A stretch of DNA of 36,173 nt from Deltaproteobacteria bacterium (GCA_015494155.1 WGBU01000190.1:1-36173); one strand, 5' to 3'; shown: positions 10,117 to 29,040, numbered from the stretch's first letter. Program-made: numbers and translations. The notes: generated by a model from the letters alone, not told the origin.

Positions 10117-10170
10117 GGGAAGGTGGCATGCCCTTTGTATTGTAATTGCTGCATCTAGTTGTGGTGTAGT

Positions 10171-11397: not shown

Positions 11398-12832
11398 GCC
11401 AAGTCAAAAGACCAGGATAATCTGCACCATTGGCCCAAGTTCTAGCTCTAAAGAGGTGCTTAAACGCCTCATGGAAGTGGGGATGAACATTGCCAGAATC
11501 AACTTTTCTCATGGCACCTTTGATTCCCACAGGGAGGTGATTGGAAGGATAAGGCAGGTAGCCAAACGCCTCGAGAAGCGCGTATCCATTATGGCAGATC
11601 TCCCTGGCCCCAAAATGCGCATCGGGACACTGGAAGAGGAGCCAGTAGAACTCCATCGCGGATCAGAGTTTGTGCTCACCACACGTAAGGTCCCTGGCAC
11701 AAAAGAGATGGTCTCCGTCTCCATTGACTGGTTGCCAAAGAGCGTCAGGCCTGGCCAGCGGATCTTTTTAAACGACGGACTCATTGAGTTGGAAGTTCAG
11801 CGGGTGGTGGGAGAAGAGATCGTCTGTAAAGTTATAGTGGGTGGAGAGCTGAGGTCTAAAAAGGGGATAAATGTGCCTGGGATTGACCTTGGTCAAGGCG
11901 CATTCACCGAGAAGGACAGAGAATGGTTGAAGTTTGCCATAGAGCAAGGGGTGGATGCAGTGAGTCAATCGTTTGTGGGGAGTGCAAAGGACGTAGAGGA
12001 CGTAAGAAGGGCTGCGAGGGAGCTTGGTGGCAATCCCTTTGTCATAGCCAAGATAGAACGCTCTAGCGTGCTTGAGAGGATAGACGAGGTCATAGATACA
12101 GCAGATGGGATCATGGTGGCCAGGGGTGATCTCGGGGTGGAGATACCCATCTACGAGATCGCCATAGCACAAAAGGGCATCACCTGGAGGGCACATGCCA
12201 AGGGGAAACCCGTGATCACGGCCACACAGATGCTTGAATCCATGACCCACAACAGGCGCCCTACTAGGGCAGAGGCTACAGACGTGGCCAATGCCATATT
12301 GGATGGAACAGACTGTGTGATGCTCTCTGAAGAGTCTGCCACTGGGAGTTTTCCTGTGGAGGCTGCCCAGACCCTGGCCAGAATTGCCCAGGCCATAGAG
12401 CCCTATATAGAGCGGCCGAGGTTCAAGTGGATGGTCAGGGACCTTGGACGCGCAGGCGCAGGCGCAGGCGCGCCAGACCTTATGGATACTATCTCGGAGA
12501 GTGTGGACTCCTTGGTGGATAGGCTGGATGTTGCCGCTGTCATCTGTCCCACAGAAAGTGGTCATACTGCGAGGATGGTGACGCGATTCAGGCTACCTTG
12601 TTGGGTGCTTGCCATAAGTAATTCCCAGAAGACGTGCCAGGAACTCATGTTTTCCTATGGGGTGATTCCAGTCTATATGACCGAAAAGCCGGCCTATTGG
12701 GGTGATGTAGCAGGAGAGATCTTGAGGGTCTATGGGCTTGAGGGTGATTACACGCTTCTGACCGAGGGTCCGTCAAGGGCACACCCTGGAGTGGATCATC
12801 GGATCGAGATAATAAGCCACAAAAAAAGCTAA
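11390..12832 (+). CDS. pyk: Pyruvate kinase
   Basis: Converts phosphoenolpyruvate and ADP to pyruvate and ATP. Family blocks in order are RINFSHGTFDSH, MADLPGPKMRIG, the catalytic lysine region KIERSSVLERIDEV, ADGIMVARGDLGVEIP, and TATQMLESMTHNRRPTRAE followed by DGTDCVMLSEESATG. The 480 residues are normal length, with a C-terminal allosteric-type domain. ATG 11390 overlaps the ackA stop by 8 bases (translational coupling). A short Gly-Ala run (GAGAGA), encoded by three GCAGGC hexamers near 12455-12472, sits in the linker before the C-terminal domain. In the operon it supplies the second substrate-level ATP step after KDPG cleavage. Confidence 0.96.
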   Translation: MDRPSQKTRIICTIGPSSSSKEVLKRLMEVGMNIARINFSHGTFDSHREVIGRIRQVAKRLEKRVSIMADLPGPKMRIGTLEEEPVELHRGSEFVLTTRKVPGTKEMVSVSIDWLPKSVRPGQRIFLNDGLIELEVQRVVGEEIVCKVIVGGELRSKKGINVPGIDLGQGAFTEKDREWLKFAIEQGVDAVSQSFVGSAKDVEDVRRAARELGGNPFVIAKIERSSVLERIDEVIDTADGIMVARGDLGVEIPIYEIAIAQKGITWRAHAKGKPVITATQMLESMTHNRRPTRAEATDVANAILDGTDCVMLSEESATGSFPVEAAQTLARIAQAIEPYIERPRFKWMVRDLGRAGAGAGAPDLMDTISESVDSLVDRLDVAAVICPTESGHTARMVTRFRLPCWVLAISNSQKTCQELMFSYGVIPVYMTEKPAYWGDVAGEILRVYGLEGDYTLLTEGPSRAHPGVDHRIEIISHKKS

Positions 12833-12843
12833 GGAGATATGAA

Positions 12844-15384
12844 ATGGTCAAAGGTGAAAAAAAGGGGACGAAAAGGGGAGCAACCAGTGGACGGTGCGAC
12901 AAGCGGATAGTGAATGAGCTTAAGAGGGCGTTTGCCTATAACCTCTTCTATCAACAGGGAAAACCTGTGGAAACAGCCACCCTTACCGATCTTTACATGG
13001 CAGTGGCCTACACGGTGAGGGACAGGATGCAACACCTATTCATCAACTCAGTAGAAAACCTCATGGAGAAGAAGATTAGGGTAGTATCCTATCTCTCGGC
13101 AGAGTTCCTCATGGGGCCGTATCTAAAGAACAATCTCTGTAATCTCGGCCTATTGGAAGAGGTGGAGCAGGCCCTTAGGGAGACTGGTCTTGACCTCGAA
13201 GAAATTGCCGATGCAGAACCAGAGCCAGGCCTTGGAAATGGGGGCCTAGGACGCCTTGCAGCCTGTTATTTAGACTCCCTCTCTACCCTCCAGATCCCTG
13301 CCATCGGCTATGGTATCCGTTATGAGCACGGGATGTTCCACCAGGTGATTGAAGATGGGTGGCAACGGGAATTGAGCGATCAGTGGCTACACTATGGCAA
13401 TCCCTGGGAGATAAAAAAGCCTGATGTGTGCTATTCCATAGGTTTTGGGGGGCGAACAGAGCAGTACACAGACGATGCAGGCAGGTTCAGGGTCCGCTGG
13501 CTGCCAGCGCGCATGGTAAATGCAGTTGCCTATGACACACCCATCCCAGGTTATAGGGTGAATAATGTGAATCTCCTGCGCCTGTGGAGTGCCGAGGCAG
13601 TAGATTCGTTCGATTTCGAAGAGTTTAATATTGGGGACTATTATGGGGCCATTGAGGAGAAAGTTAAGGCAGAGAATATCACCAAGGTCCTATACCCCAA
13701 CGACGAACAGTACCAGGGGAAGAGACTGCGGCTCGAACAACAATACTTCTTTGTCTCTGCCTCACTCCAAGACATGATCCGTATTCACCTCTTCAAGAAT
13801 CGAGACCTCACCAATTTTCACGAGACATTTGCCGTACAGTTGAACGACACACACCCAGCAGTTGCGATCCCAGAACTCATGAGGCTACTCATGGATGAAT
13901 ATGCCATGGGTTGGGATGAGGCATGGGAGATCACCACAAAGACCATGTCCTATACCAATCACACACTGCTCCCAGAGGCAATGGAAAAGTGGCCCCTTGA
14001 ACTCTTTGGCTCCTTGTTGCCACGACATTTGGAGATCATCTATGAGATAAATTATAGATTCTTAGAAGATGTGAAGGCGCGTTTCCCAGAAGACAATGAG
14101 AGGCTGAGCAGGATGTCCCTCATCGACGAGTCTGGGGGGCGTCATGTGCGTATGGCAAATTTGGCCTGTGTGGGAAGCCATGCCATAAATGGCGTCGCCG
14201 CCCTTCATACCGATCTTTTGAGGCGACACACGCTGAGAGATTTTGAAGAGATGTGGCCTGGTAAGGTCAAAAACGTCACCAATGGTGTGACGCCAAGGCG
14301 ATGGATGCTAGTGGCCAACCCGAGACTCTCGGCACTCATCAGCGAGGCCATTGGAGACCAGTGGATAAAGGATCTGTCACAACTCAAGAAACTGGAGCCC
14401 TTGGCAGATGACCCAGCCTTTAGGGACAAGTGGCGTAAGGTTCAAGAGGCAAACAAGGCTGAGGCGGCCAAGAAGGCTGGGGCAAGCGGTATAAAGGTGG
14501 ATCCGAGCTCCATGTTCGACGTCCAGGTAAAGCGTATCCACGAGTACAAGCGCCAGCACCTCAATGTCCTACACATCATCACACTCTATAACAGGATCAA
14601 GGAGTCGCCCTCACTAGATATCACACCGAGGACATTCATATTCGGAGGCAAGGCCGCACCTGGCTATTTTATGGCAAAACTTATTATAAAGCTCATAAAC
14701 TCAGTGGCCGAGGTGGTGAACAATGACCCTGACGTGCAAGACCGCCTAAAGGTGATATTCATACAAAATTACAACGTAAAGACAGGTCATATAGTCTATC
14801 CCATGGCTGACCTCTCAGAGCAGATATCCCTCGCTGGCAAGGAGGCCTCTGGTACAGGCAATATGAAGTTCTCTATGAATGGTGCCCTTACCATAGGGAC
14901 CTTGGATGGTGCCAATGTGGAAATAAGGGAAGAGGTGGGGGCAGAGAACTTCTTCCTGTTTGGTCTAAGGGTGGAAGAGGTGATGTCTTTGAAGGCCCAG
15001 GGGTATGATCCAATGGTCTATTACAACAGCGATCCAGAGTTGAAGCAGGTAATCGACCTCATAGATTCAGGCCACTTTTCCAAGGGAGACCGAGGACTCT
15101 TTAGGCCACTGGTGGAATCGCTGAAATACCATGACGAATATATGTTGTTTGCAGATTACCGTCCATATATTGAGTGCCAGGAGGAGGTCTCCAGGGCCTA
15201 CATGGATCAGGCATACTGGACCAGGATGTCGATCTTGAATAGCGCGCGAATGGGAAAATTCTCTTCAGACAGGTCCATAGGGGAATATGCCCAGAAGATA
15301 TGGCACGTAGAGCCACAACCAGTGGAGTTAAAGTTTTCAAAGGTGCCAGAAGAGGGCCTCGTTTTAAGACCAAAAACAATATGA
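12844..15384 (+). CDS. glgP: Glycogen/starch alpha-glucan phosphorylase
   Basis: Releases glucose-1-phosphate from alpha-1,4-glucans using phosphate and pyridoxal phosphate. Its 846 residues match classical GT35 phosphorylases. The PLP lysine is K675 in EASGTGNMKFSMNGALTIG. Other landmarks are EPGLGNGGLGRLAACYLDS, NDTHPAVAIPELMRLLMDE, VTNGVTPRRWM and FDVQVKRIHEYKRQHLN. ATG 12844 is preceded by AAGGAG (12831-12836). An overlapping ATG at 12839 opens a different short frame and is not used. The position at the end of an Entner-Doudoroff/acetate operon implies that the operon consumes stored glycogen. Phosphoglucomutase, needed to link glucose-1-phosphate to Zwf, is not in the window. Confidence 0.97.
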   Translation: MVKGEKKGTKRGATSGRCDKRIVNELKRAFAYNLFYQQGKPVETATLTDLYMAVAYTVRDRMQHLFINSVENLMEKKIRVVSYLSAEFLMGPYLKNNLCNLGLLEEVEQALRETGLDLEEIADAEPEPGLGNGGLGRLAACYLDSLSTLQIPAIGYGIRYEHGMFHQVIEDGWQRELSDQWLHYGNPWEIKKPDVCYSIGFGGRTEQYTDDAGRFRVRWLPARMVNAVAYDTPIPGYRVNNVNLLRLWSAEAVDSFDFEEFNIGDYYGAIEEKVKAENITKVLYPNDEQYQGKRLRLEQQYFFVSASLQDMIRIHLFKNRDLTNFHETFAVQLNDTHPAVAIPELMRLLMDEYAMGWDEAWEITTKTMSYTNHTLLPEAMEKWPLELFGSLLPRHLEIIYEINYRFLEDVKARFPEDNERLSRMSLIDESGGRHVRMANLACVGSHAINGVAALHTDLLRRHTLRDFEEMWPGKVKNVTNGVTPRRWMLVANPRLSALISEAIGDQWIKDLSQLKKLEPLADDPAFRDKWRKVQEANKAEAAKKAGASGIKVDPSSMFDVQVKRIHEYKRQHLNVLHIITLYNRIKESPSLDITPRTFIFGGKAAPGYFMAKLIIKLINSVAEVVNNDPDVQDRLKVIFIQNYNVKTGHIVYPMADLSEQISLAGKEASGTGNMKFSMNGALTIGTLDGANVEIREEVGAENFFLFGLRVEEVMSLKAQGYDPMVYYNSDPELKQVIDLIDSGHFSKGDRGLFRPLVESLKYHDEYMLFADYRPYIECQEEVSRAYMDQAYWTRMSILNSARMGKFSSDRSIGEYAQKIWHVEPQPVELKFSKVPEEGLVLRPKTI

Positions 15385-15399
15385 GGGGTGTGTGAGAAG

Positions 15400-18117
15400 A
15401 TGAAGAGGACGATCTTTTCCGCAGTGATTTTGTCTTTAGTCTGTCTGTTTTTTGCCCAAGGATATTTAAATCTTTTTCATACAGGGGGACTAGGTGTAGC
15501 GTGGGCCAAGAAAGAGCAGAAAAAAGGGGCTAAGTCCGGCTCCAATGAACCAGACCCGTGGTTTCCCCGTAAACGCTCTGGCCCCAATGGCACTATCATC
15601 TTTTATGCACCTCAGATAGACTCCTGGAAGGATTTCAAGGTGATCGAGGTGTGGCAGGCCTTTTTGGCCACTCCCAAAGGGGAAAAGAGGGGCTATTACG
15701 GGTCATTGCACTACAAGGCGAATACAGAGGTAGATATAGATAAACGCGAGGTACTCCTTAGCAATGTGAAGATCCTAGAGCTTTCAATACCCAAGCTACC
15801 CAAGGATTCTCCACTATTTAAGATTGTAAAAAAGGGCCTTACAGCAGCTCCAGTGGTGGTGCCCCTTGATCTTGTGCTGGAGTATCTGCCAGAGGATATG
15901 GAAATTCCCTCTGTTAAGGGTCTCAATCCAAAGCCACCCAAGATATTCTATTCAACAAAACCAGCACTCCTCCTCTTTGTTGATGGTAAGCCCATATGGG
16001 TCCCCATTGAGAAGACGGGGATTGAGTTTCTGATAAATACCAACTGGGATCTCTTGAGGGAAAAGGGCAAGGAAAAGGGTCCATATTATCTGAGATACAA
16101 TACGAACTGGCTGACCTCAAACTCCTTCAAAGGGCCATGGACGTGGGCAAAATCGCTACCCAAGGGGCTTAAAAAGCTTCCAAAAGACAAGAACTGGAAG
16201 GCAGTACACAATGCCCTTCCCAAGGACCTCGATAAGATCGAGCCTCCAAAAGGGCCAGTGCCCAAGGTCTTCTACACCGATGAGCCAGCAGAGCTCATAC
16301 TCTTTGACGGGCCTCCAAAGTGGGAGCCCATAGGGAAGACTGGCCTTCAATATGGAGTTAATACAAAAGAAGAGGTTTTCAAGTTAAATGACAAATATTA
16401 TGTACTTTTTTCAGGTAGATGGTTCGAGGCTAAGGACCTTAGTGGCCCGTGGAAGTGGACTACAAAGCTCCCCAAGGCCTTTCTAAATATCCCCAAGGAC
16501 CACAAAAAGGCCTATGTGAGGAAAAACGTACCTGGGACCAGGGAGGCGTGGGAGGCCGCACTCCTTGCCAGTATCCCGAGGCGTGCCACTGTTAGTAAGA
16601 AGGCATCCAATCTGGCGCCAAAGGTGGAATATGTGGGTGAGCCCATCTTCAAGCCCATAGAGGGTACCAAGGTAGCCATGGCAGTGAACACCAAATATCA
16701 GGTGTTGAGATACAAGGGGAAATACTATCTCTGTTATAATGCCATATGGTTTGAGTCCAATGACCCAAAGGGGCCATGGGTCCTGACAGAGTCCATCCCA
16801 GCAGAGTTCAGTAAGATCCCACCTACCTCCCCTGCTTATAATACGACCTTCGTAAAGATTGCCGACAGCACAGATGAAAATGTCACTTATACCTACACCC
16901 CAGGATATGAGGGGTCATACGTGGTGCATACTACTGTTGTGTATGGGACAGGTTGGTGGCACCCCTGGCACTGGTATTGGGATGACTATGACTACTACTA
17001 TCCTTATCCATATTACCCATACTATCCCTATCCGCCCACCTACAATCATGGCAGTTGGTACGATCCAGAAACAGGCAGATTTGGCCGTTCTGTAGTGGGT
17101 TACGGTGCCTATGGCAATGCTGGCGTGGCTGCTGTCTTCAATCCAAAGACAGGGACATATGCAAGGGGTGCAGCCGTATGGGAAGACGATGAATACAGGA
17201 CCAAAGGCCTTGCCTTCAACCCAAACACCAACACCCAGACCTTTTCAAACCGCTATTTGGACCTGGAAAATAAAGAGGGCTGGAGCGAGCGGCTTACTAC
17301 CCGTGGAGATGAGTGGCGCTACAGAAAGAGCGAGTGGGAAGACGGGAGGTTAAAGAGCGAATTCGAGACCTCCTATGGTACAAAGGGCGAGATATATCGC
17401 CAGAAGGATGGGAACACGCTGAAGAGCCAGGGTACCATCTCGTACAAGGGGAAAGAGATGGAGTTTCAGTCCACTCGGGAGCGTCAAGGGGACAAGCTGG
17501 TGAACAAGGGTACTATAACTGGAGAGAATCGTTCTGCTCAATTCGAGAGCGAGTGGAAGAATGGACAGGGCAACATAGAGGTGCGCGGCTCTGAAGGTGG
17601 CACAGGCTCTATCAAGAGGGAGGTTGGCGGTGGTGAGATCACTGGCTCAGGTACCTTTACCAAGGGTGACACTACACTCAAGACAGAGATGAAACGCACT
17701 GCAGAAGGGGTCGTGCGTAAATATGAATCTAATACTGGATCAAAGGGTGCAACCTTTAAGCAGGGGGATACCAGGTCCTTTATTGCAGAGACCAGTGGTG
17801 GAGACATCTATGCTGGCCGTGATGGAAATGTGTACAAAAAGACTGATAATGGGTGGACCAAGGTGGAAAATCCAGGCGGAAAGGCCTGGGCGCTGGGAAA
17901 GGAGAGAAGTGCCAGATCTAATTCTAAGTCTGAGTTCTTGAAGAAGAGATATGGGGACAGAAGTGCACGGGCCACTCGTGATAGATCGAGGTCCATCAAC
18001 AGGCAGCGTCTAAATCGCGATTACAAGAGCCGCCACAGGGGGTTTCAGCGCTTTAAGGCGAGGAGGAGCTCCATGGGACGTGCAAGGGCAGGTGGCTTTA
18101 GAGGTCGCAGGAGATAG
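15400..18117 (+). CDS. Exported repeat protein with aromatic core and Arg-rich tail, function unknown
   Basis: A predicted secreted or surface protein of 905 residues. ATG 15400 follows GAGGGGTG at a normal distance and opens a signal peptide (MKRTIFSAVILSLVCLFFAQ, mature from about AWAKKE). An in-frame GTG at 15388 is less likely. Three degenerate ~80-residue repeats begin near bases 15930, 16260 and 16618. Each contains PK-[IV]-x-Y, a VNTK or INTN strand, a YY strand, and W-[FL]-x(5-7)-GPW followed by a lysine-rich turn. I recall similar repeats in proteobacterial proteins labelled carbohydrate-binding family V/XII, but the activity of that group is not established as far as I know. A segment very rich in Tyr, Trp, Pro and His (16945-17060) follows, then Gly/Thr/Lys-rich strands, and a tail with about 20 Arg in the last 75 residues. 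It starts 15 bases after glgP, so it probably shares its transcript. Confidence 0.8.
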   Translation: MKRTIFSAVILSLVCLFFAQGYLNLFHTGGLGVAWAKKEQKKGAKSGSNEPDPWFPRKRSGPNGTIIFYAPQIDSWKDFKVIEVWQAFLATPKGEKRGYYGSLHYKANTEVDIDKREVLLSNVKILELSIPKLPKDSPLFKIVKKGLTAAPVVVPLDLVLEYLPEDMEIPSVKGLNPKPPKIFYSTKPALLLFVDGKPIWVPIEKTGIEFLINTNWDLLREKGKEKGPYYLRYNTNWLTSNSFKGPWTWAKSLPKGLKKLPKDKNWKAVHNALPKDLDKIEPPKGPVPKVFYTDEPAELILFDGPPKWEPIGKTGLQYGVNTKEEVFKLNDKYYVLFSGRWFEAKDLSGPWKWTTKLPKAFLNIPKDHKKAYVRKNVPGTREAWEAALLASIPRRATVSKKASNLAPKVEYVGEPIFKPIEGTKVAMAVNTKYQVLRYKGKYYLCYNAIWFESNDPKGPWVLTESIPAEFSKIPPTSPAYNTTFVKIADSTDENVTYTYTPGYEGSYVVHTTVVYGTGWWHPWHWYWDDYDYYYPYPYYPYYPYPPTYNHGSWYDPETGRFGRSVVGYGAYGNAGVAAVFNPKTGTYARGAAVWEDDEYRTKGLAFNPNTNTQTFSNRYLDLENKEGWSERLTTRGDEWRYRKSEWEDGRLKSEFETSYGTKGEIYRQKDGNTLKSQGTISYKGKEMEFQSTRERQGDKLVNKGTITGENRSAQFESEWKNGQGNIEVRGSEGGTGSIKREVGGGEITGSGTFTKGDTTLKTEMKRTAEGVVRKYESNTGSKGATFKQGDTRSFIAETSGGDIYAGRDGNVYKKTDNGWTKVENPGGKAWALGKERSARSNSKSEFLKKRYGDRSARATRDRSRSINRQRLNRDYKSRHRGFQRFKARRSSMGRARAGGFRGRRR

Positions 18118-18162
18118 AAGGAAAAAAAGAAAAAAATGAATATTAAAAGGAGGCACAGGTGC

Positions 18163-19404
18163 ATGAATCTTAAAAAGATATTGTTGTTGGTTGTCCTAGG
18201 CCTATTCTTTTCAGGCCCTGTTTTGGCGGAAATGTCTCAGAGTTACGACTCCATTCCACTGGTAATGAGGGCACAGGACGTCCTTTCAAAGGGTTATCTC
18301 AAGGGCATGATCTACACGATTGGTCCAACTGTTTATAGTGATGGGCTAGTGAACATCTATGAATTTCACACCACCCTGGGCACACTCAGTGTAGAGAGCA
18401 CAGGACTTTTACAAAAACGCATCAGAGAGGCCCAGGCACTCTACTTCATGAAGGAGATGGAAAAGACGGATGTATTTAAAAAGGCCTTCAAAGAGGCCCT
18501 CAAAGGGCCAGTGAAGACAGTGAAGGGCCTTGTGACAGAGCCCGTGACCACAGTGACCAATAGTGTGAAGGGTGTTGGCCAATGGTTTTCCAGTGTTGGG
18601 CAGGCGATCTTCAGTGACTCCCCAGACCAGGAGGGGGTGGCCAAGACCGCCTTGGGCCATGCCGCTGCCAAGAGGGCCTTTGCCTATGAGTTTGGCATTG
18701 ACCCATATTCCAAGTGGGATGCAGTACAGGAGGAGTTGAATAAAATCGCCTGGGCGTCGGTCTCTGGGGGGATAACAGTCAAGGCCGCCTTTCACCTCAT
18801 CCCAGAGGGTGCAGGCATTGTAGTACGGGGGCTCGGTACCTCTGCTAGTGTCAGTAAGCTTGTAAGGGACAGCAGTGTGGGAGAACTGAGGAAATATAAT
18901 GGAGAACGCCTAAAGGAGATGGGTGTAAGGGAGGCCACTATAGACCTCTTTTTGAACAATCCCAACTATACCCCATATGAGCGCACATTTTTGGTAATGG
19001 AACTCATGGACATGAAGGGTGTAAGAGATCGAGCGGTCTACATGACCTACGCAGCAAGGGCCAATAGTGAGGCAGTGGCCATTTTCTGGAGGCTCAGTGC
19101 TGGCATGATGGAGAACTACATAAAGTCTACAGGTGATGTGGTACGACTAGTGGACCTAGCTGGAATTCCATTTATGCAGAGACGGGATGGGCAAATAATA
19201 GGCATGTTCGCCCTGGACAATCTTGCATGGACTCCCAGGATCGACAAGAAGCTCTCTTACGTGGATCGTGCCATCCGGTCACTTCCTAGTGCCAGGGGAA
19301 AGCAGATCTGGATTGCAGGGCGTATAACGCCCAGGGCAAAAGAGGCCCTTAAAGAAAGGGGCTGGGAAATCGTTGCCAATGTAGGTTTTTTGCCCAAAAA
19401 GTGA
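18163..19404 (+). CDS. Exported protein of unknown function, 413 residues
   Basis: I do not recognise the family. ATG 18163 is chosen because AGGAGG (18148-18153) sits 9 bases upstream and it gives a clean signal peptide, MNLKKILLLVVLGLFFSGPVLA, cut before EMSQ. An in-frame ATG at 18136 would put a charged extension in front and has a poor ribosome binding site. The mature protein has an amphipathic helical part (KKAFKEALKGPVKTVKGL...VKGVGQWFSSVGQAIF), a Gly/Ala-rich moderately hydrophobic segment (SVSGGITVKAAFHLIPEG), and a C-terminal alpha/beta part ending near KQIWIAGRITPRAKEALKER. It lies 45 bases after the repeat protein and probably belongs to the same transcript. A periplasmic or envelope location is inferred from the signal peptide only. 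Confidence 0.78.
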   Translation: MNLKKILLLVVLGLFFSGPVLAEMSQSYDSIPLVMRAQDVLSKGYLKGMIYTIGPTVYSDGLVNIYEFHTTLGTLSVESTGLLQKRIREAQALYFMKEMEKTDVFKKAFKEALKGPVKTVKGLVTEPVTTVTNSVKGVGQWFSSVGQAIFSDSPDQEGVAKTALGHAAAKRAFAYEFGIDPYSKWDAVQEELNKIAWASVSGGITVKAAFHLIPEGAGIVVRGLGTSASVSKLVRDSSVGELRKYNGERLKEMGVREATIDLFLNNPNYTPYERTFLVMELMDMKGVRDRAVYMTYAARANSEAVAIFWRLSAGMMENYIKSTGDVVRLVDLAGIPFMQRRDGQIIGMFALDNLAWTPRIDKKLSYVDRAIRSLPSARGKQIWIAGRITPRAKEALKERGWEIVANVGFLPKK

Positions 19405-19499: not shown

Positions 19500-19988
19500 A
19501 TGAAACGGAGCATTTTGGTGGCAATTTTGAGTTTGGGCATGGTGCTACCAGTCATTTCAGGGGCACAGGAACTGGTGATTTACCCAGCAAAGGGCCAAAG
19601 CGCTCAACAGTTGGAAAAAGACAAGGCAGAGTGTTACAACTGGGCCAAGACCCAATCGGGCTTTGATCCCATGCAGCCCCCAACCCCATCCACACCACCA
19701 CCGCAGCAGACAGAGCCAAGGTCCAATGCAGTTAGGGGGGCAGTGAGGGGCGCACTCCTTGGTACAGCAGTGGGCGCTATTGCAGGCGATGTGGGAAAGG
19801 GTGCCGCCATAGGTGCAGCCTCTGGTGGATTGCTGGGGGGCATGAAAAAGAGAGACCAAGAGGCACAACAGAAGGCGGCCCAGGAGCAGTGGGCCAGGCA
19901 GGAGGCATCTCAGTATCAGCAGAAGCGCTCCTCTTATCTCAAGGCCTTTTCCGCCTGTATGGAGGGAAGAGGCTACACAGTAAAATAA
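19500..19988 (+). CDS. Small exported glycine-zipper protein
   Basis: A 162-residue envelope protein. A signal peptide (MKRSILVAILSLGMVLPVISGA) precedes QELVIYPAKGQSAQQLEKDKAECYNWA. A Pro/Gln-rich linker (PTPSTPPPQQ) leads to a glycine zipper, a Gly/Ala-patterned helix pair (AVRGALLGTAVGAIAGDVGKGAAIGAASGGLLGG). A Gln/Lys-rich helix with a final C-x-x-G-R-G-Y motif completes it. Glycine-zipper proteins of this sort insert in or associate with the outer membrane or peptidoglycan, and their role is usually unknown. AGGAAGGAG lies just upstream of ATG 19500. Two cysteines, C45 and one near the C-terminus, may pair in the periplasm. It is separated from its neighbours by 95 and 210 bases, so it may be an independent unit. 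Confidence 0.85.
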   Translation: MKRSILVAILSLGMVLPVISGAQELVIYPAKGQSAQQLEKDKAECYNWAKTQSGFDPMQPPTPSTPPPQQTEPRSNAVRGAVRGALLGTAVGAIAGDVGKGAAIGAASGGLLGGMKKRDQEAQQKAAQEQWARQEASQYQQKRSSYLKAFSACMEGRGYTVK

Positions 19989-20084: not shown

Positions 20085-20114
20085 TTGACAATTATTTATC
20101 TTGTAAAGTAATAT
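20085..20114 (+). promoter_or_regulatory. Sigma-70-type promoter for the RND/transport operon
   Basis: TTGACA (20085-20090), an 18-base spacer, and TAATAT (20109-20114). The 12 bases AAAGTAATATTC around the -10 box are identical to those at the zwf promoter. The expected start of transcription is near 20121, inside the inverted repeat annotated next. Confidence 0.6.
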
Positions 20115-20198: not shown

Positions 20199-21302
20199 AT
20201 GTTGTCTTATTGGTTAAACAGGTCTAAGGGTCTTATAAAGCTCCTAATCCCATTTGTCGCCATCTCTTTTTTAGTCACAGGGTGCGGAAAGAAACAGGAG
20301 GAGAAAAGGCCAGAGGTGGTGCGTCCTGTAAAGCTCCTTACAGTGAAGGACGTGAACGAAGACTTGGTCCAGGGCTTTCCTGGCATGGTGCGTGCTGCGA
20401 GGAGGGCAGTCCTTTCATTCAAGGTGTCGGGGCGGATAGTGAAGCTACCAGTGGAAGAGGGGCAATTGGTCAAGCGTGGCGATCTCATTGCCCAATTAGA
20501 TCAGCGTGACTTCTTGAATGCAGTAAAGGCAGCACGGGCTAGGTTCAAGGAGGCAGAACAGCAGTTCAGGCGCTACAAAGAGCTCTATGCCAAAAAGCAG
20601 GTCTCGCGGGCAGACTATGACCGGTATCTGGCTGCAAGAGACGTGGCCAAGGCCAAACTGGATGAGGCATTGAACAGGTTGAAGGATACCACACTCAGGG
20701 CGCCTTTTGATGGTTACATTTCAAAGCGCTATGTGGAGCTCTATTACGAGGTCAAGGCCAACGATCCCATTGTAAACCTACAGGACATTTCAAAGATAGA
20801 GGTCCTGGTGGATCTGCCAGAACTCACCATGGCTGCAGTAAAGGAGGAGAACCTCGGAGAGATCGTGGCAGAGTTCGATGCCATCCCAGGTAAAAGGTTT
20901 CCGTTGACAGTCAAGGAATACTCCACAGAGGCAGATCCGGCTACCCAGACCTACCAAGTAGTATTTGTGATGGATCAGCCAAAGGGTGCAAATATACTTC
21001 CAGGCATGACTGCCACTGTCACTGCCTCCTTTAGGGAGGGGGCTGGCAAGGGACCAAGGATCATCGTACCGTCCCTGGCAGTACTCGATGCACCAACAGA
21101 CAAACCCTATGTATGGGTTTACGATCCCTCGTCGGGGACTGTGCACAGGCGCTATGTGAAGATTGGGGCCCTTGTGGACTCTGGGGGGATACTCATACGT
21201 GAAGGCCTCAAGCCAGGGGAACAGATAGTGATTGCAGGGGTTACTAAGCTCAAAGATGGCATGAAAGTGCGTCCGTGGGAGATGCAGAGGGAAGGGAAAT
21301 AG
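20199..21302 (+). CDS. RND efflux adaptor lipoprotein (HlyD/MFP family)
   Basis: Periplasmic adaptor linking an inner-membrane RND pump to an outer-membrane channel. The N-terminus is a lipoprotein signal with lipobox LVTGC (C29), so the mature protein should be lipid-anchored. The order is that of the family: a lipoyl-like half (VSGRIVKLPVEEGQLVKRGD), a coiled-coil hairpin (residues ~105-160, rich in Ala/Lys/Glu/Arg), the second lipoyl half (TTLRAPFDGYISKRYV), then beta-barrel and membrane-proximal domains with NILPGMTATV. ATG 20199 follows AGGGGGA. It ends 4 bases before the RND permease. The 367-residue length is usual. The substrate is not predictable from this gene. Confidence 0.93.
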   Translation: MLSYWLNRSKGLIKLLIPFVAISFLVTGCGKKQEEKRPEVVRPVKLLTVKDVNEDLVQGFPGMVRAARRAVLSFKVSGRIVKLPVEEGQLVKRGDLIAQLDQRDFLNAVKAARARFKEAEQQFRRYKELYAKKQVSRADYDRYLAARDVAKAKLDEALNRLKDTTLRAPFDGYISKRYVELYYEVKANDPIVNLQDISKIEVLVDLPELTMAAVKEENLGEIVAEFDAIPGKRFPLTVKEYSTEADPATQTYQVVFVMDQPKGANILPGMTATVTASFREGAGKGPRIIVPSLAVLDAPTDKPYVWVYDPSSGTVHRRYVKIGALVDSGGILIREGLKPGEQIVIAGVTKLKDGMKVRPWEMQREGK

Positions 21303-21306
21303 GCCC

Positions 21307-24300
21307 ATGAACATCGCTGAACTCTCCATAAAAAAGAGTGTCATCACATGGACCATGACAGTGGTAATGCTCTTCCTGGGCTATTTTGCCTACGAGGGGC
21401 TCCCCAGGCTCGAAGACCCTGAGTTCGCCATCAAAGAGGCAGTGATAGTCACACCCTATCCAGGTGCCTCTCCACAGGAGGTCCAGGAAGAGGTCACAGA
21501 GGTTATCGAGAAGGCGGTCCAGGAGATGGGGCAGCTCAAAAAGGTGGTCTCTTACTCTTCCAGGGGGATGTCACTGGTCCACGTCTATATAAAGGATCAA
21601 TACAGAAAGGAGCAGTTGCCCCAGGTCTGGGACGAGCTGAGGCGTCGCATGGCAGACCACGAGCATGAGCTCCCGCCAGGGGCAGGCCCCATAACAGTCA
21701 ACGACGACTTTGGCGACGTGTTTGGCGTCTATTTTGGGCTTGTAGGTGAGGGTTACACATATGCAGAGCTTAAGGCAGTGGCCGAGTTCCTGCAACGAGA
21801 GCTCCTCACAGTACAAGATGTGAAGAAGATAGAACTGTTTGGCCTGAGAAAAGAGGCGGTCTATGTGGAGATCTCAAGGGCCAAGATGGCAGCTCTGGGC
21901 ATCACTCAGGCAGACATCTACAATGCGCTCAGGGCCAAGAACCTGGCCGTTGACTCTGGCAGGATAGAGTTTGGCGTAGAGTATCTCGCCATAAACCCCA
22001 CAGGTGAATTCAAGAGTGAAAAGGACTTTGGCAACCTCTTTATCGCCTCAAAGGGGGGGCGGCTCATATTTTTGAAGGATATCGCGGAGATAAAGCGTGG
22101 ATATGTTGAGCCACCATCAAAGATCCTTCGTGTTGATGGGAGGCCTGCCATTGGGATCGCCATCTCAACTGTCCTTGGTGGAAATGCTGTCACCATGGGA
22201 AATGCAGTGTTAAAGCGCCTGGAGGCGCTTCAGGACCAGATCCCCTTGGGCATGGAACTCGTAGAGATCTCCATGCAGTCTAAGTCTGTGACCAAGGCAG
22301 TGAACGGTTTTGTCATAAATCTCCTGGAGTCCGTATGTATCGTCATAGTGGTCCTGGCGGTCTTCATGGGATTTCGTTCAGGGCTCATCATAGGGTTCAT
22401 TCTGCTCCTCACCATTGCCGCAACATTTGTGGTCATGGGTTATTACCACATCATCCTCCAGAGGATCTCCCTTGGGGCCCTGATTATTGCCTTGGGGATG
22501 TTGGTGGACAATGCAATAGTGGTAGTAGATGGTATGAAGGTCAAAATGAAGCAGGGGGTCGATGGGCTCACAGCCGCCAAGGAGGTTGTGGGCCAAAACG
22601 CCATTCCACTCCTTGCAGCTACGGCTGTAGCCATTATGGCCTTTGCCTCTATTGGAGGAATGAGCAACTCCACTGGTGAGTATTGTCAGAGCCTATACCA
22701 GGTGATTCTCATCTCGCTCTCGCTTTCCTGGATAACCGCTGTGACCACAGCACCCCTCATAACAAAGAAGTTTGTCCTGAGCAAAAAGGATCTCTCTTCT
22801 GGAGGTGGTGGCGAAGAGGCCTATAGTGGTAAATTCTATCAGATCTACAGGAAAATACTCACTGGCGCCATCAAGGCCAGGTGGGTCACCATTGCCATCG
22901 TGGTCGGCATGTTCATTGCCTCTGTGTATGGGTTCACATTTGTTAAACAGCTCTTTTTCCCTGCCTCCACCAGGCCGCAGTTCATTGTAGAGACCTTTTT
23001 TAGAGAAGGAATACACATCCGTGAGACAGAGCGCCAAGTGGCAAAGATGGAAAAGTATCTTAGCAAGCTAAAGGGCGTGACCCAGGTGGCATCGGCCATT
23101 GGCGGAGGGCATCCCAGGTTCCTCCTCACTTATTCTACACCAGTGGAAGGGGCGAACCAGTATGCAAATATCCTTGTATCTGTTGAGGATTACAGGATTA
23201 TCAATGATCTTGCCCCAAAGGTCCAAAAGGACCTTGAAGAGATGTTCCCAGATGCGTGTGTCAATGTGAAGAAGTTCAACCTAGGGCCTGCTACAGGTGG
23301 AAAGATCCAGTTGAGGATAAATGGTTCAGACCCAGAGAAATTGCGCGCTCTTGCGGAAAAGGCCGTGGCAATCTTTAGGGAAGAGGGCGCAAAGGCAGTG
23401 AGGACCGAGTGGGGTGAAAAGGTCAAGGTACCTGTACCCATTGTGGCAGAGGACAGGGCCATGGCCCTTGGGATCACTCGTCCCATGATCGCCCAGGCCA
23501 TCCAGGCAACGTTCTCGGGAAAGACAGTAGGGGTCTATCGCGAGGGTACAGAGCTCATCCCCATCATTGCCCGTGCCCCAGACGATGAAAGGGACACCAT
23601 TGAAGACCTGAGCGAGATCCAGATCTACAGCCCAGTGGCGAGACAATACGTGCCAATAATGCAGGTACTAAAGGGCATTGAGACCAGGTGGGAGACGGCT
23701 AGGCTCTCTCGCTGGCAGAGGCGCCCATTTATCAAATTACATGCAGATCCAAGAGACGAGCTACCAGCCGAACTCATGGCCAGGGTAAAACCGAGGATCG
23801 AGCAGGAACTCGGAGTAGACCTGGCCGCCTACAGAGGAACGCCCTTAAAAGAGGGAGAGAAGTGGACGGCCAAGACCATCCCCATCAAATATGACGACAT
23901 CATACCCCTTAAGGGAATGCCTGGGTATTTCATTGCATGGGGTGGAGAGCTTGAAGATTCTTCAGACTCCCAGGCGCAACTTGCTGCCAATATACCCATC
24001 TACTTTGGCATGATGATACTCATTGTGATCTTCATGTTCAATGCATTCCGCCAGCCACTCATCATCTGGCTCACAGTGCCATTGGCCTTGATAGGGGTTA
24101 CTGCAGGACTCCTGTTGCTCAAGCAGCCCTTTGGCTTCATGGCTCTATTGGGACTGATGAGTCTCTCTGGCATGCTCATCAAGAATGCAATAGTCCTCAT
24201 AGATCAGATCGACATCAACATCCGTTCTGGCATGAAGGGGCTCGATGCAATAGTTGAGTCCGGGGTCTCGAGGATGCAGCCAGTGATGATGGCTGCCCTC

Positions 24301-24447
24301 ACCACCATGATGGGTATGATCCCGCTCTTCCAGGATGCATTCTTTGTGTCCATGGCAGTGACCATCGTGTTTGGACTGGGCTTTGCAACAGTGCTCACCC
24401 TTGTATTCGTGCCAGTGCTTTACGCCACATTCTTTAGGATAAAGTGA
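21307..24447 (+). CDS. RND-family efflux permease
   Basis: Inner-membrane proton-driven exporter of the AcrB/HAE type, 1046 residues, with the normal duplicated layout: TM1 near residues 12-33, a large periplasmic loop, TM2-6, then the second half. TM4 carries GMLVDNAIVVVDG with D401. The second acidic position of the usual D-D pair is N402. The basic relay lysine is K959 in GMLIKNAIVLID. The first residues (MNIAELSIKKSVITW) and the LPRLEDPEFAIKEAVIVTPYPGAS block are typical of a subgroup common in Proteobacteria. It follows the adaptor by 4 bases and precedes a TolC-type gene, completing a tripartite pump. Drugs, metals, lipids or solvents are all possible substrates. Confidence 0.95.
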   Translation: MNIAELSIKKSVITWTMTVVMLFLGYFAYEGLPRLEDPEFAIKEAVIVTPYPGASPQEVQEEVTEVIEKAVQEMGQLKKVVSYSSRGMSLVHVYIKDQYRKEQLPQVWDELRRRMADHEHELPPGAGPITVNDDFGDVFGVYFGLVGEGYTYAELKAVAEFLQRELLTVQDVKKIELFGLRKEAVYVEISRAKMAALGITQADIYNALRAKNLAVDSGRIEFGVEYLAINPTGEFKSEKDFGNLFIASKGGRLIFLKDIAEIKRGYVEPPSKILRVDGRPAIGIAISTVLGGNAVTMGNAVLKRLEALQDQIPLGMELVEISMQSKSVTKAVNGFVINLLESVCIVIVVLAVFMGFRSGLIIGFILLLTIAATFVVMGYYHIILQRISLGALIIALGMLVDNAIVVVDGMKVKMKQGVDGLTAAKEVVGQNAIPLLAATAVAIMAFASIGGMSNSTGEYCQSLYQVILISLSLSWITAVTTAPLITKKFVLSKKDLSSGGGGEEAYSGKFYQIYRKILTGAIKARWVTIAIVVGMFIASVYGFTFVKQLFFPASTRPQFIVETFFREGIHIRETERQVAKMEKYLSKLKGVTQVASAIGGGHPRFLLTYSTPVEGANQYANILVSVEDYRIINDLAPKVQKDLEEMFPDACVNVKKFNLGPATGGKIQLRINGSDPEKLRALAEKAVAIFREEGAKAVRTEWGEKVKVPVPIVAEDRAMALGITRPMIAQAIQATFSGKTVGVYREGTELIPIIARAPDDERDTIEDLSEIQIYSPVARQYVPIMQVLKGIETRWETARLSRWQRRPFIKLHADPRDELPAELMARVKPRIEQELGVDLAAYRGTPLKEGEKWTAKTIPIKYDDIIPLKGMPGYFIAWGGELEDSSDSQAQLAANIPIYFGMMILIVIFMFNAFRQPLIIWLTVPLALIGVTAGLLLLKQPFGFMALLGLMSLSGMLIKNAIVLIDQIDINIRSGMKGLDAIVESGVSRMQPVMMAALTTMMGMIPLFQDAFFVSMAVTIVFGLGFATVLTLVFVPVLYATFFRIK

Positions 24448-24471
24448 GGAAAGGGCTAGGAGATGATAGTG

Positions 24472-26841
24472 ATGAAAGGACGAAGTAGGCTGCTTTCTTT
24501 AATGGTTTGCGTACTATTCACTCTATTTTTGGGAGGTGCCACCAAGGCTGCGGCGGCCTGTAAGAGGACTATAAAGATAGGGATACTCCTCGACGGCTCC
24601 ACACCTGGAGACAAGGCGCTATCCGCTACGTTCAAACAGGAGATCACCTCGATGCTGAGGCCCGATGTATGCGCCACCTTTCCATCCCAGTGGGAACTAG
24701 ATGGCAAGGATTCGAGGGAGGGGGTGAGAGAGGCCCTCTCTAAGTTGCTCAGAAAGGGTGGGCCAGATGTAGTACTCGCCCTGGGTGTCATTTCTTCCCT
24801 TGAGGTCCTAAGACGCGGTCCTCTGCCAAAGCCAGTGATTGCACCACTGGTTCCCAGGTTTGCCATAAAGAAGAACAAGGGTTCAAATACAAGTAATGTA
24901 AAAAATCTCATTTACATAGACTCTATCTATTATCTAGATAAGGACATAGAGATCTTTAAAAAGGTGGTGCGCTTTCACCACGTGGCCATCGTGCTGGACA
25001 AAAGGGAGCTCTATTCAATCCCAGATGTCTTCAGACTGGCCCAGGAGTTTGGAGAAAGGCACGGGCTCAAGGTATCCTTGGTGCCAGCAATGGGTTCTGC
25101 TCAAAAGGTGCTACAAGAGATCCCCGGGGGTGTCGATGCAGTGCTCGTTGGCCCACTTTGGCACTTTAGCGGTGGGGAGTTTAAGAAGCTCGTTGAGGGG
25201 CTTAAAAAGAGGCGTCTTCCTTCTTTTGGCATCTGGGATAGACACCAGGTAGAGATGGGGCTTTTTGCAGGGGCAGAGGCGAGTGATAAGGAGGTGATCC
25301 TTGCACGTCGCACAGCGGTGGCCATAATGGATATCCTCCAGGGTGAGGCCCCACACAGAATCGAGGTGAAGTTTAAGAGAAATCGTGAACTCACCATCAA
25401 CATGGCCACTGCCAGGGCCATATCGATCTATCCCGACCTTTTGGTGATGACAGAGGCCACTTTGCTGAATGAAGAGCCTGGCGAGGTCTCTAGGAGGCTA
25501 AATATAAAAAAGGCAGTGGAAGAGGCCATCTCGGCAAACCTGAGGTTAAAGTCAGTTACAGTGGATGTGATGGCAGGTGAACACAAGGTAAAAGAAGAGA
25601 GGGCAGATTTATTTCCACGCGTAGACCTTGCAACGGGCTACAGAATCATCGATTCAGACAGGGCCAGACAGGGCGCAGGTGTTAGCCCTCAACGGGCCTG
25701 GACAGGGACTGCAGGTGGATCGATTCTCCTTTATTCAGACAAGATCTGGGCAAAGTATAGGGCCCAGGAATACTTACAGCGTGCCCGTGAGATGAGGCGA
25801 GAGAAGACTAGGTTGGATGTGACCTACGATGCCTCTGTGGCCTATCTCAATGTCTTGCGTGCAAAGACCATAGAACGCATCTACAAGGAAAACCTCGCCC
25901 TTACCAAGGCAAACCTTGAACGCGCCAAGATAAAGGTGGAGACAGGCGCTGCTGGGCCAGATGAAGTGTACAGGTGGGAATCCAAGTTTGCCAACGACAG
26001 GCGCCTTGTACTATACCGTGAATCAGACACCCTGGATGCCATGGAGGCCTTGAATCGGATTCTCCACCGCCCCCTTGACGAACAATTTGTGCCAGAGGAG
26101 GCCACCTTGAAGGACCCCCTCTTCATGGTGGGCGACAACGCCTTTTTTAAATTCATGGAAAATCCATTGAAGATCCAGCGGTTCAAGGAGTTTGCCACCC
26201 GCGAGGCTGTGGAAAAGAGGCCAGAGATAAAGGTGTTAGACTCATTGATTGATGCCAAAGAGCGCCTTAAAAAATCTGCCAAACGCCAACTCTGGTTGCC
26301 AGACTTCACAGTGGAGTGGAATGTAGACCAGTACCTCGCCCAGGATGGACATGGCGAAAGAGACAACTCCTCCCTTGACGATACAGACTGGAACGTAGGT
26401 GTCTTTGCCCGTATCCCACTCTTTGAAGGAGGAAAGACCTATTACAGGGCGAGGAGGCTCCAAGAAGAGGTCTCTAAACTCTATGTGGACAAAGATGCCC
26501 TAGTAGAGGCGATCTACCAAGAGGTAATGGCTGCCATAAACAAGACAAGGGCCTCATACCCTTCTATTTGGCTCACCCGGGATGCAGAAGTGGCGGCAAA
26601 GAAGAATCTGGACCTTGTGACCGACTCCTATGTCCAGGGCATCAAAAACATCATCGACCTTTTGGATGCGCAGAATCAATATCTAAATGCCAAATTGGAT
26701 GCGGCCAATGCAGTCTATAACTTCCTCATCGACTTCATGGGAGTCCAGCGCGCCATGGGTGAGTTTGTAATCTTCCTGCCAGGACCAGAGCGTGAGCAGT
26801 GGCTCGCAACCTTGAAGGAGATTCTGGCGGCGAAAGACTAG
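24472..26841 (+). CDS. TolC-type outer-membrane efflux protein fused to an ABC_sub_bind-like periplasmic domain
   Basis: Outer-membrane channel of the tripartite pump with an unusual N-terminal addition. ATG 24472 is preferred: AGGAG (24458-24462) is 9 bases upstream, while ATG 24463 directly touches it. A signal peptide covers residues 1-28. Residues ~30-315 resemble a type I periplasmic binding fold (KIGILLDGSTPGD, GPDVVLALG, HHVAIVLDKRELYSIP, VDAVLVGPL, then INMATARAISIYPDLL). The last block resembles the C-terminal signature of ABC_sub_bind (PF04392) proteins. From ~345 to the end the two long coiled-coil repeats of an outer-membrane efflux protein are seen (YDASVAYLNVLRAKTIERIY...; YQEVMAAINKTRASYPSIWL...VTDSYVQGIKNIIDLLDAQN). 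Its 789 residues compare with 430-500 for plain TolC. The frame is continuous across the junction, 24 bases after the permease. Confidence 0.85.
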   Translation: MKGRSRLLSLMVCVLFTLFLGGATKAAAACKRTIKIGILLDGSTPGDKALSATFKQEITSMLRPDVCATFPSQWELDGKDSREGVREALSKLLRKGGPDVVLALGVISSLEVLRRGPLPKPVIAPLVPRFAIKKNKGSNTSNVKNLIYIDSIYYLDKDIEIFKKVVRFHHVAIVLDKRELYSIPDVFRLAQEFGERHGLKVSLVPAMGSAQKVLQEIPGGVDAVLVGPLWHFSGGEFKKLVEGLKKRRLPSFGIWDRHQVEMGLFAGAEASDKEVILARRTAVAIMDILQGEAPHRIEVKFKRNRELTINMATARAISIYPDLLVMTEATLLNEEPGEVSRRLNIKKAVEEAISANLRLKSVTVDVMAGEHKVKEERADLFPRVDLATGYRIIDSDRARQGAGVSPQRAWTGTAGGSILLYSDKIWAKYRAQEYLQRAREMRREKTRLDVTYDASVAYLNVLRAKTIERIYKENLALTKANLERAKIKVETGAAGPDEVYRWESKFANDRRLVLYRESDTLDAMEALNRILHRPLDEQFVPEEATLKDPLFMVGDNAFFKFMENPLKIQRFKEFATREAVEKRPEIKVLDSLIDAKERLKKSAKRQLWLPDFTVEWNVDQYLAQDGHGERDNSSLDDTDWNVGVFARIPLFEGGKTYYRARRLQEEVSKLYVDKDALVEAIYQEVMAAINKTRASYPSIWLTRDAEVAAKKNLDLVTDSYVQGIKNIIDLLDAQNQYLNAKLDAANAVYNFLIDFMGVQRAMGEFVIFLPGPEREQWLATLKEILAAKD

Positions 26842-26874
26842 AGGGAGTGAGATAGTTCTCTTTTTTAGTGCCTG

Positions 26875-29040
26875 ATGGGCGGGAAAAGACTTACCCTATC
26901 CAATCAGATACTCATAGGAGTGGGGCTGGGCCTCTTCCTGGGGCTCTTCTTTGGAGAGCGTATGGCCTTTCTCCACGTTGTAGGGACCATCTACATAAAA
27001 CTCCTACAGGTTACAGTACTCCCGTACATAATCGTTTCACTCACTGGAAGCCTTGGAAAGCTCACCCTGGAGCAGGCCTCGGTGATGGCAAGGCGGGTCT
27101 CTATAATATTTCTCATCCTCTGGGTATTGACACTCCTCTCAGTGGTGCTTTCTGTCTTCTCGTTTCCAAACATCGAGACCGCCTCATTCTTCTCGTCCTC
27201 AATGATACCCAGCACCAAGGAGCCAGACTATCTGGCACTCTATATCCCATTTAATCCATTCTTTTCCCTTGCCCAGAACCTCGTGCCTGCTGTGGTGATA
27301 TTTTGTATTCTGATGGGTACTGCACTCATCACAGTGGAGAAAAAGGAACTCATTATCGAGCCCTTAGACGTTGCCTCTAAGGGGCTACTTAGGATCACAA
27401 ACTTCTTTGTAAAGCTGACCCCTATCGGCCTCTTTGCCATTGCTGCATCGGCAGCAGGCACCATGTATGTGGAGGACATAAAGCAGCTACAGGTCTATAT
27501 CCTGCTCTATATCGCACTTAGTCTAGTCTTTACGTTCTGGATCTTGCCTGCCCTTGTGTCCACCTTTACACGGGTCCCATATGTCAAGATCTTTGAGTAC
27601 TTCAAAGATGCACTGGTCATGGCGTTCTTTACCGGCAGTGTGTTCGTGGTGCTGCCCCTCATCACCGAGAAGGCTACAGAGATAATCAAGAGGTTTGTCA
27701 CAGAGGATCAGGACACCCAAAATGCAGTGGAAGTCATTGCCCCAGCCTCCTTCAATTTCCCTGGAAGCGGAAAGCTCTTGCTGCTCCTCTTTATTCCATT
27801 TGCTGGCTGGATGACCAACACCGACATTGGCCCAGGGCGCTTTATCGAGCTTGCAAGCCTCGGGTTCTTTACCTTTTTTGGCAGTGTGAATGTGGCCATT
27901 CCATGGCTCCTCGACTTCTTTCGCATTCCAGCAGACATATTCGACCTCTTTATGATGAGCGGGATCATAAATTCCCGTTTCTCAACCCTGGCATCTGCCA
28001 TGTTTACCATAGTAGTGAGTATCGCAGGTGCATGCGCCATGACCAGCAACCTCAGATTGAGCCTACCGCGGCTTGTGCGCTATGTGGTCACATCCATCTT
28101 GGGATGCATCGGGGTCATCCTGGTCATGGGCCTTATATTCAGGTTTGTGGTAAACATAAAATATGAAAAGCACGACATAGCCATGGAGATGTCCTTACAG
28201 TTGAAGGATGGTGTCGCTGCCAAGGTATACGACCATCAACCCCCGCCACTTCCAAGGCCCCCGTCCAATGTGCCTCTCACCACAGCCATCAAGGAGCGGG
28301 GAGTGATTCGGATCGGCTATCCGTTAGAGGACAAGATGCCTTTTTCATACCACAACAAGAAGGGCGAGCTTGTGGGGCTTTCCATTGATCTAGCGTATCA
28401 GTTGGCAAAGGATATGGGAGTAGGTCTTGAATTGGTCCCAATAGACGACAGGCACCTAGCCGAGGAGTTGAACAGTGCCAAGGTGGATGTGGTCATGGGA
28501 CACAATCTCATCATCCCCGAGACTGCCCTTCGGCTCAATTTTACCCAGCCCTTCATGTACGAGACCATGGCCCTTGTGATGGAAGACTACAAACGCTCCC
28601 TTTTCCAAGACATGAATGATCTCAGGGAGAAGGCCGTGGTGCTGGCTGTGCCAGACATCCCATATTATAAGAACATGATGAAGGATCTGTTTCCCAAGGC
28701 GAGGCTACGGCCCATTGGCTCTGTGAAGGATTTCTTCTTGGGAAGATACAAAGACGCAGATGCCATGGTCTACACTGCAGAGGGCGGGGCGTTCATGACG
28801 CTCATCTATCCCAGATATTCAGTAGTGGTGCCCAGGGGTCTAAATATTCGCCTTCCACTGGCATTTCCAGTGAGGATGGGCGGGCAGAGCCTGGCCCGTT
28901 TTATGGACGCCTGGATAGCCATGAAGACCCATGATGGTACACTGGATCGGCTGGTTAGTTATTGGATCAAGGGCGAGAATGCAAAACCAAAACGCCCCAG
29001 ATGGTGTATAGCAAGGGATCTCTTGCACATCATAGACTAG
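26875..29040 (+). CDS. DAACS-type symporter fused to a family-3 solute-binding domain
   Basis: Residues ~1-400 resemble the dicarboxylate/amino acid:cation symporter family, with hydrophobic segments in the expected pattern. The diagnostic sites diverge. The Ser-rich HP1 tip is TGSVFVVLP (~252-260) and the NMDGT motif is replaced by NFPGSG (294-299). A further hydrophobic segment at ~402-428 follows, then a Pro-rich linker and a family-3 solute-binding domain (~468-715: VIRIGYPLEDKMPFSYHNKKG, GLSIDLAYQLAKDMG, DVVMGHNLIIPETALRLNFT). ATG 26875 is the only likely start in frame and lacks a good Shine-Dalgarno, so translation may depend on the preceding gene 33 bases away. Substrates are probably amino or carboxylic acids, by family only. 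Confidence 0.85.
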   Translation: MGGKRLTLSNQILIGVGLGLFLGLFFGERMAFLHVVGTIYIKLLQVTVLPYIIVSLTGSLGKLTLEQASVMARRVSIIFLILWVLTLLSVVLSVFSFPNIETASFFSSSMIPSTKEPDYLALYIPFNPFFSLAQNLVPAVVIFCILMGTALITVEKKELIIEPLDVASKGLLRITNFFVKLTPIGLFAIAASAAGTMYVEDIKQLQVYILLYIALSLVFTFWILPALVSTFTRVPYVKIFEYFKDALVMAFFTGSVFVVLPLITEKATEIIKRFVTEDQDTQNAVEVIAPASFNFPGSGKLLLLLFIPFAGWMTNTDIGPGRFIELASLGFFTFFGSVNVAIPWLLDFFRIPADIFDLFMMSGIINSRFSTLASAMFTIVVSIAGACAMTSNLRLSLPRLVRYVVTSILGCIGVILVMGLIFRFVVNIKYEKHDIAMEMSLQLKDGVAAKVYDHQPPPLPRPPSNVPLTTAIKERGVIRIGYPLEDKMPFSYHNKKGELVGLSIDLAYQLAKDMGVGLELVPIDDRHLAEELNSAKVDVVMGHNLIIPETALRLNFTQPFMYETMALVMEDYKRSLFQDMNDLREKAVVLAVPDIPYYKNMMKDLFPKARLRPIGSVKDFFLGRYKDADAMVYTAEGGAFMTLIYPRYSVVVPRGLNIRLPLAFPVRMGGQSLARFMDAWIAMKTHDGTLDRLVSYWIKGENAKPKRPRWCIARDLLHIID

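Follow-up and report, generated by a model that had tools for sequence, protein, structure and literature searches.

A conserved RND export pump with a solute-binding domain on its outer-membrane channel and an adjoining, divergent SDF-type fusion protein

Introduction

Outer-membrane channels are usually regarded as passive ducts. In TriABC-OpmH and MexJK of Pseudomonas, a channel of the TolC class serves an adaptor and a permease, and the locus described here shares this composition as well as a permease that is closest to MexK and TriC. Proteins of the TrpX and CD0873 type (ABC_sub_bind; 3lft, 6hni) are free lipoproteins of ABC importers, and their fold recurs in the N-terminal domain of the channel protein of this locus. 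GltPh and the other DAACS symporters represent the fold family of its fourth protein. Export systems with an additional part are also on record: CusCFBA likewise supplements an RND system with a further binding component in the periplasm (PMC8277102, PMC7682875), and in Bucl8 of Burkholderia, too, an efflux channel of the outer membrane bears an additional domain (PMC7682875).

Here we report a computational analysis of four adjacent genes in which a TolC-type channel and an SDF-type membrane protein are each fused to a binding domain. The stronger finding is a conserved pump with a binding-domain channel and a neighbourhood of NhaA, K+ channel and PqiAB genes, which ranks above the pairing of all four genes.

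Results

The window, by which we mean the whole stretch of 36,173 nucleotides that was analysed, is one entire draft-genome contig (G000:C190). Its relatives belong to the Thermodesulfobacteriota, many of them being MAGs filed as Deltaproteobacteria, and the host is akin to hydrothermal-vent sulfate-reducer lineages. For comparison we used the 46 genomes of the order, which are at the same time the whole class set, and a phylum sample of 395 genomes.

Four open reading frames at 20199-29040, all in the same direction, were confirmed to encode an adaptor lipoprotein, an RND permease, an SBP-TolC fusion and an SDF-SBP fusion. The gaps between them, given as 4, 24 and 33 bases in the first-pass annotation, were borne out along with the coordinates: 4 nt between adaptor and permease (21302/21307), 24 nt between permease and SBP-TolC, and 33 nt between the two fusions (26841/26875). 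The second of these values holds for an SBP-TolC start at ATG 24472, for which an AGGAG at 24458-24462 is properly spaced; the alternative start is the upstream ATG at 24463, 15 nt from the permease end (24447/24463). Ahead of the adaptor gene, a promoter-like match at 20085-20114 (TTGACA-18-TAATAT, plus strand) had the top score of the region (10/12), where promoter-like matches are no more numerous than expected by chance. No terminator-like sites were found in the intergenic gaps of the four genes, and Rfam and tRNA scans returned no matches. The one-directional layout supports an operon-like arrangement. Because each fusion was found in many independent genomes, both are real, and an assembly artefact as their source is ruled out. 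Open-licence literature, searched by domain accession and keyword, yielded no account of either fusion.

Upstream of this set, the window encodes a single protein of 563 aa that joins IspH (LytB) to a UbiA-type prenyltransferase (1402-3093), followed by a run of Entner-Doudoroff and acetate genes at 3285-15384 (G6PD, 6-phosphogluconolactonase, Edd, Eda, Pta, AckA, pyruvate kinase and glycogen phosphorylase). At 15388-19404 lie genes for a 909-aa and a 422-aa protein without Pfam match, both of which stand beside a glycine-zipper gene in a related genome, G004 (L154); the 422-aa protein was found just once more in the 46 order genomes.

The first two genes of the set encode the inner parts of a pump. 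The adaptor (20199-21302, plus strand) is a periplasmic membrane fusion lipoprotein of the RND type: its translation contains the lipobox LVTGC, and it matched RND_mfp (TIGR01730) with 267 bits against a cut-off of 94.9. The permease (21307-24447, plus strand) matched ACR_tran with 454 bits and falls on the TriC/MexK side of HAE-1, its closest solved structures being MexK and TriC. Its TM4 motif reads VDNA, with VDN in place of VDD: the second Asp is replaced by Asn, while the first Asp and the TM10 Lys of the proton relay are kept. The same VDNA is present in the permeases of 20 of 22 relatives, the remaining two being unmatched by the pattern used, and permease identity within the order is about 80-84% over the full length. 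Adaptor, permease and outer-membrane channel are thus encoded together, as in tripartite RND (HAE-1) systems, and the three genes would specify a complete exporter of this kind, with an H+-driven, TriC/MexK-like permease and a TolC channel.

The channel gene (24472-26841, plus strand) is the SBP-TolC fusion. Its channel part (25480-26838) consists of two OEP repeats (PF02321) and scored 144.5 bits, and its N-terminal domain (24562-25467) matched ABC_sub_bind (PF04392) with 27.4 bits against a cut-off of 25.9. This weak match is nevertheless solid, given that AlphaFold modelled the domain alone with confidence (pLDDT 90, pTM 0.86) and that the top PDB folds for the model were 3lkv (Foldseek E 6e-15), 3lft with bound L-Trp, and 6hni, the Clostridioides protein CD0873. 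Judged by this model, the N-terminal domain is a type I periplasmic-binding fold of the TrpX-like kind. The full-length model had low confidence (pLDDT 69) and was left unused. Helix H1, at the N-terminus of OMF channels, is part of the equatorial domain, which has been implicated in contact with the adaptor (PMC8277102). The binding domain, at the N-terminus of the channel, would therefore sit beside the equatorial belt where adaptors dock, and three such domains would ring each trimer.

Several features are those expected of a live ligand domain. Residues D44, G45, D179, R181, G230, L232, W233, W258, R282, R283 and N313 are invariant, as is a G-P-L-W segment in the second lobe, and the domain diverges faster than the channel (mean identity to 12 relatives 45% against 69%). 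Neither the window nor the annotated neighbours of the pump include an ABC permease or ATPase, and SBP-TolC thus lacks the ABC-importer partnership of ABC_sub_bind proteins. The domain may take a small periplasmic ligand for which the fold relatives allow a first guess only, namely aromatic or other amino-acid-like compounds. We also considered that it acts as a substrate carrier in the manner of CusF, capturing the export substrate in the periplasm and passing it to adaptor or permease without any gating. CusF indeed passes Cu+ through the adaptor CusB to the pump (PMC8277102), and a specificity part would be expected to evolve faster than the pump, as this domain does. Yet the domain sits on the outer-membrane channel rather than on the adaptor or permease, and the permease, at about 80-84%, is far more conserved than the domain, which ranges from 36 to 52% in relatives. 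We regard such a carrier as unlikely.

SBP-TolC was present in 18 of the 46 order genomes and in 23 of the 395 sampled phylum genomes. Adaptor and permease adjoin it in 22 loci beyond the window, from many families across the phylum, in the order adaptor-permease-channel or channel-adaptor-permease; two loci in which flanks are visible had SBP-TolC with no adjacent RND gene, L118 and L113, the latter being cut off downstream. The conserved unit is the trio of adaptor, RND permease and SBP-TolC, without the fourth gene, and its persistence in 22 further loci marks the fused channel as specific to this pump.

The usual partners of the trio in relatives, lying before or after it, are NhaA (a Na+/H+ antiporter), a K+ channel with TLGYGD as its selectivity filter, PqiA in one or two copies, a PqiB/MlaD protein and a small protein of unknown kind, and no symporter is among them. 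In co-distribution tests, which ignore phylogeny, the K+ channel was found in 17/18 pump-bearing against 1/28 pump-free order genomes and NhaA in 14/18 against 3/28. A glycine-zipper envelope protein, encoded in the window just before the pump as an accessory neighbour (19500-19988, plus strand; Pfam Gly-zipper), had homologs in 9/18 against 0/28. At the level of genera, four of the six with a pump being members of one family, the K+ channel separated as 6/6 with pump against 0/16 without, and the glycine zipper as 5/6 against 0/16. The control katG, from the same window, was unrelated to the pump (3 of its 10 carriers were pump-bearing). Glycine-zipper genes lie near the pump in L052 and L055 and near an SDF-SBP paralog in L075, and the genome of the window carries NhaA and the K+ channel on another contig (L145). 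Because NhaA, the K+ channel and PqiAB accompany the pump in relatives, an envelope and ion-homeostasis module is suggested.

Some arrangements around these loci deserve mention in their own right. In three distant families of the phylum, the RND pump with SBP-TolC has a K+ channel gene as its direct neighbour (L114:10071-10766, L121:9871-10584 and L129:6522-7235). In G387, genes for DUF3300 and DUF2950 proteins sit between the RND permease and SBP-TolC (L110:4755-7097). A free-standing homolog of the family-3 binding domain at L054:16541-18120 comes just before a K+ channel, two PqiA genes and PqiB, convergent with the pump, an arrangement that is reminiscent of ligand-gated K+ channels.

The fourth gene (26875-29040, plus strand) encodes the SDF-SBP fusion, with SDF matched at 146.9 bits over residues 8-382 (GltPh-type domain, 26896-28020) and SBP_bac_3 at 71.1 bits against a cut-off of 26.4 (28285-28980). 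Between the two domains lies an extra ninth transmembrane helix with an arginine-rich N-terminal side (28084-28140, residues 404-422, hydropathy peak 2.67). SDF proteins such as GltPh have cytoplasmic C-termini, and the ninth helix should therefore leave the binding domain at the C-terminus, which is of type II (family 3), on the periplasmic side.

The first-pass annotation had called this protein a symporter, a label that our alignment makes doubtful. Five canonical SDFs from relatives retain NMDGT, the HP1 serines (SSS), the HP2 tip and the TM8 Asp/Asp/Arg/Asn set (D-x3-D-x2-R-T-x2-N) with small variations. The window protein and all members of the fused family, in contrast, lack the DAACS/SDF symporter motifs: NMDGT is replaced by YSFPSVGT or similar, the serines of HP1 and the TM8 set are missing, and the HP2 tip has lost six residues. 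Since the replacement motifs FPSVGT, FGS..VAIPF and RF.T are themselves conserved in most of the family, the protein is not decaying.

The binding domain also departs from its family. The closest solved structures are AncCDT-1, an ancestral cyclohexadienyl dehydratase, and other family-3 amino-acid binding proteins. At the position that we take, from knowledge of the family, to be the alpha-carboxylate-binding Arg, the window and G004 proteins have Thr or Ser, while most second-clade proteins (see below) keep Arg; the presumed alpha-amino Asp position is not conserved in the fused family. The domain thus matches the profile and lacks the Arg/Asp pair of the family-3 pocket. As both the SDF residues and, in the window-type proteins, the carboxylate-binding Arg are lost, "Na+:dicarboxylate symporter" is unsuitable as a function name.

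Loss of NMDGT, of the HP2 tip and of the TM8 D/D/R/N residues could mean that the fusion does not transport at all and that its SDF part is a membrane scaffold which relays ligand binding, as in a receptor. The conserved replacement motifs, however, suggest an altered but active transport core, Pfam detected no attached signalling domain, and the genes next to paralogs, for a glutaminase and for RimK ligases, suggest a role in handling metabolites, so that a receptor-like role appears improbable to us. The working hypothesis of the first-pass annotation was a division of labour, in which import or sensing of one ligand at the inner membrane falls to the fourth protein and export of a related one to the pump. 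The operon layout and the predicted periplasmic position of both binding domains are in keeping with this idea. The two folds, however, are indeed unrelated, as had been noted (type I in SBP-TolC, type II in SDF-SBP), and the Na+ and amino-acid/dicarboxylate motifs of SDF are gone throughout the fused family. We consider an import/export pair very improbable.

Among the 46 order genomes, the window-type SDF-SBP clade has two members, those of the window and of G004, which are 75% identical. Proteins of a second clade, which includes paralogs in G000 and G004, are 35-38% identical to the window protein; none of their genes was found beside the pump among assembled relatives. In G004, contig C112 opens with 'QRAMREISLR*', which resembles the conserved SBP-TolC tail 'QRAMGEF', and after 15 bases continues with SDF-SBP, NhaA and the K+ channel, while the SBP-TolC gene of this genome runs off the end of contig C243. 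The adjacency spans two contig ends, and the 10-residue tail match was reached by 10 of 400 shuffles; because NhaA and the channel follow SBP-TolC in other relatives, we consider the adjacency likely. SDF-SBP is therefore probably directly behind SBP-TolC in both carriers of the window-type fusion. The flanks differ between the two: the genes for the 909-aa, 422-aa and glycine-zipper proteins stand before the pump in the window but on a pump-free contig in G004 (L154). A recent block transfer between G000 and G004 is unlikely, as their SBP-TolC proteins are just 58.5% identical, the same as to other families.

SDF-SBP proteins occur in 15/18 pump-bearing against 1/28 pump-free order genomes and, by genus, in 5/6 against 0/16, by the same counts that ignore phylogeny. 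Outside the order, both fusions occur together in just one genome of the phylum sample of 395, and there on different contigs. A RimK-type ligase adjoins 10 of 15 SDF-SBP paralogs, and in one phylum member glutaminase is directly behind the SDF-SBP gene (L124). PqiB (68% identical) and a glycine zipper adjoin SDF-SBP in L075, and a DUF4136 protein stands beside SDF-SBP-RimK in L070, L071, L074 and L077 and beside the pump in L052 and L055; accessory genes thus move between pump and SDF-SBP loci. Two side results concern these loci. The second SDF-SBP paralog of the window's genome (L066:51-3211, G000:C41) overlaps a gene for a RimK-family ligase, and this gene pair recurs in about ten genomes. 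An amidase (G391, G046) was ruled out as a partner common to both fusions, the identity being 32% in a very large family.

These data bear on whether the fourth gene is a mere passenger that became inserted behind the pump in a single lineage and shares its transcript without a functional connection. The SDF-SBP genes of all other assembled relatives lie elsewhere, mostly beside the RimK-type ligase, and other genes follow SBP-TolC. Against this stand the co-distribution of SDF-SBP with the pump within the order and the two families in which the genes are probably adjacent although both flanks have changed. A passenger is conceivable but on balance somewhat unlikely. The paired four-gene system first proposed is partly supported: the operon layout and the co-distribution speak in its favour, but the four genes are not the conserved unit: other relatives have the trio alone, and apart from the apparent neighbourhood of the fusions in G004, to which the complete set may also extend, no other assembled relative places the two fusions side by side.

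Discussion

The reading that we favour, with a probability of roughly one half, is that the locus encodes a ligand-sensing or ligand-capturing RND exporter which belongs to an envelope and ion module, joined by a recruited and repurposed transporter. In this exporter, the presence of a ligand on the channel's binding domain may couple to adaptor recruitment or channel opening, or the domain may keep substrate close to the pump. The fourth gene, encoding a divergent membrane protein of the SDF type whose family-3 domain would be tethered by the ninth helix on the periplasmic side, may have been recruited to the operon in one sublineage. Its product would most likely be a binding-protein-dependent secondary transporter with altered coupling, or else a ligand-responsive membrane protein, and could handle the same envelope condition as the pump or a related metabolite.

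A more specific version would combine a ligand-gated export pump with a new class of secondary transporter on an SDF scaffold that dispenses with the classical Na+/substrate site. In that version, the binding domain of the channel would control adaptor docking or opening, and a periplasmic metabolite would switch export on. We hold this stricter combination to be distinctly doubtful.

The locus is also of wider interest. A conserved duct with a solute-binding domain of its own makes sensing or gating of export at the outer membrane testable, and its linkage to NhaA and a K+ channel suggests a connection between some RND pumps and ion balance. In the SDF-SBP family, nature provides a test of how much change the ion and substrate sites of the glutamate-transporter fold can undergo.

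Each of the described systems differs from this locus in at least one defining part. Compared with TriABC-OpmH and MexJK, the channel here is encoded with the pump and bears a type I binding domain, and the permease has VDN in TM4 and K in TM10, as against VDD and R in MexK and TriC. CusF of CusCFBA is a separate, small, metal-binding protein, whereas here a 300-residue solute-binding fold is placed on the outer-membrane channel. The addition to Bucl8 is an extracellular, collagen-like C-terminal stalk, in contrast to the predicted periplasmic binding domain of SBP-TolC. Unlike in TrpX- and CD0873-type proteins, the ABC_sub_bind domain is fused to TolC and has an invariant G-P-L-W in its second lobe. 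Finally, the fourth protein differs from GltPh and the DAACS symporters in that it lacks their signature motifs and has gained a ninth helix and a family-3 binding domain.
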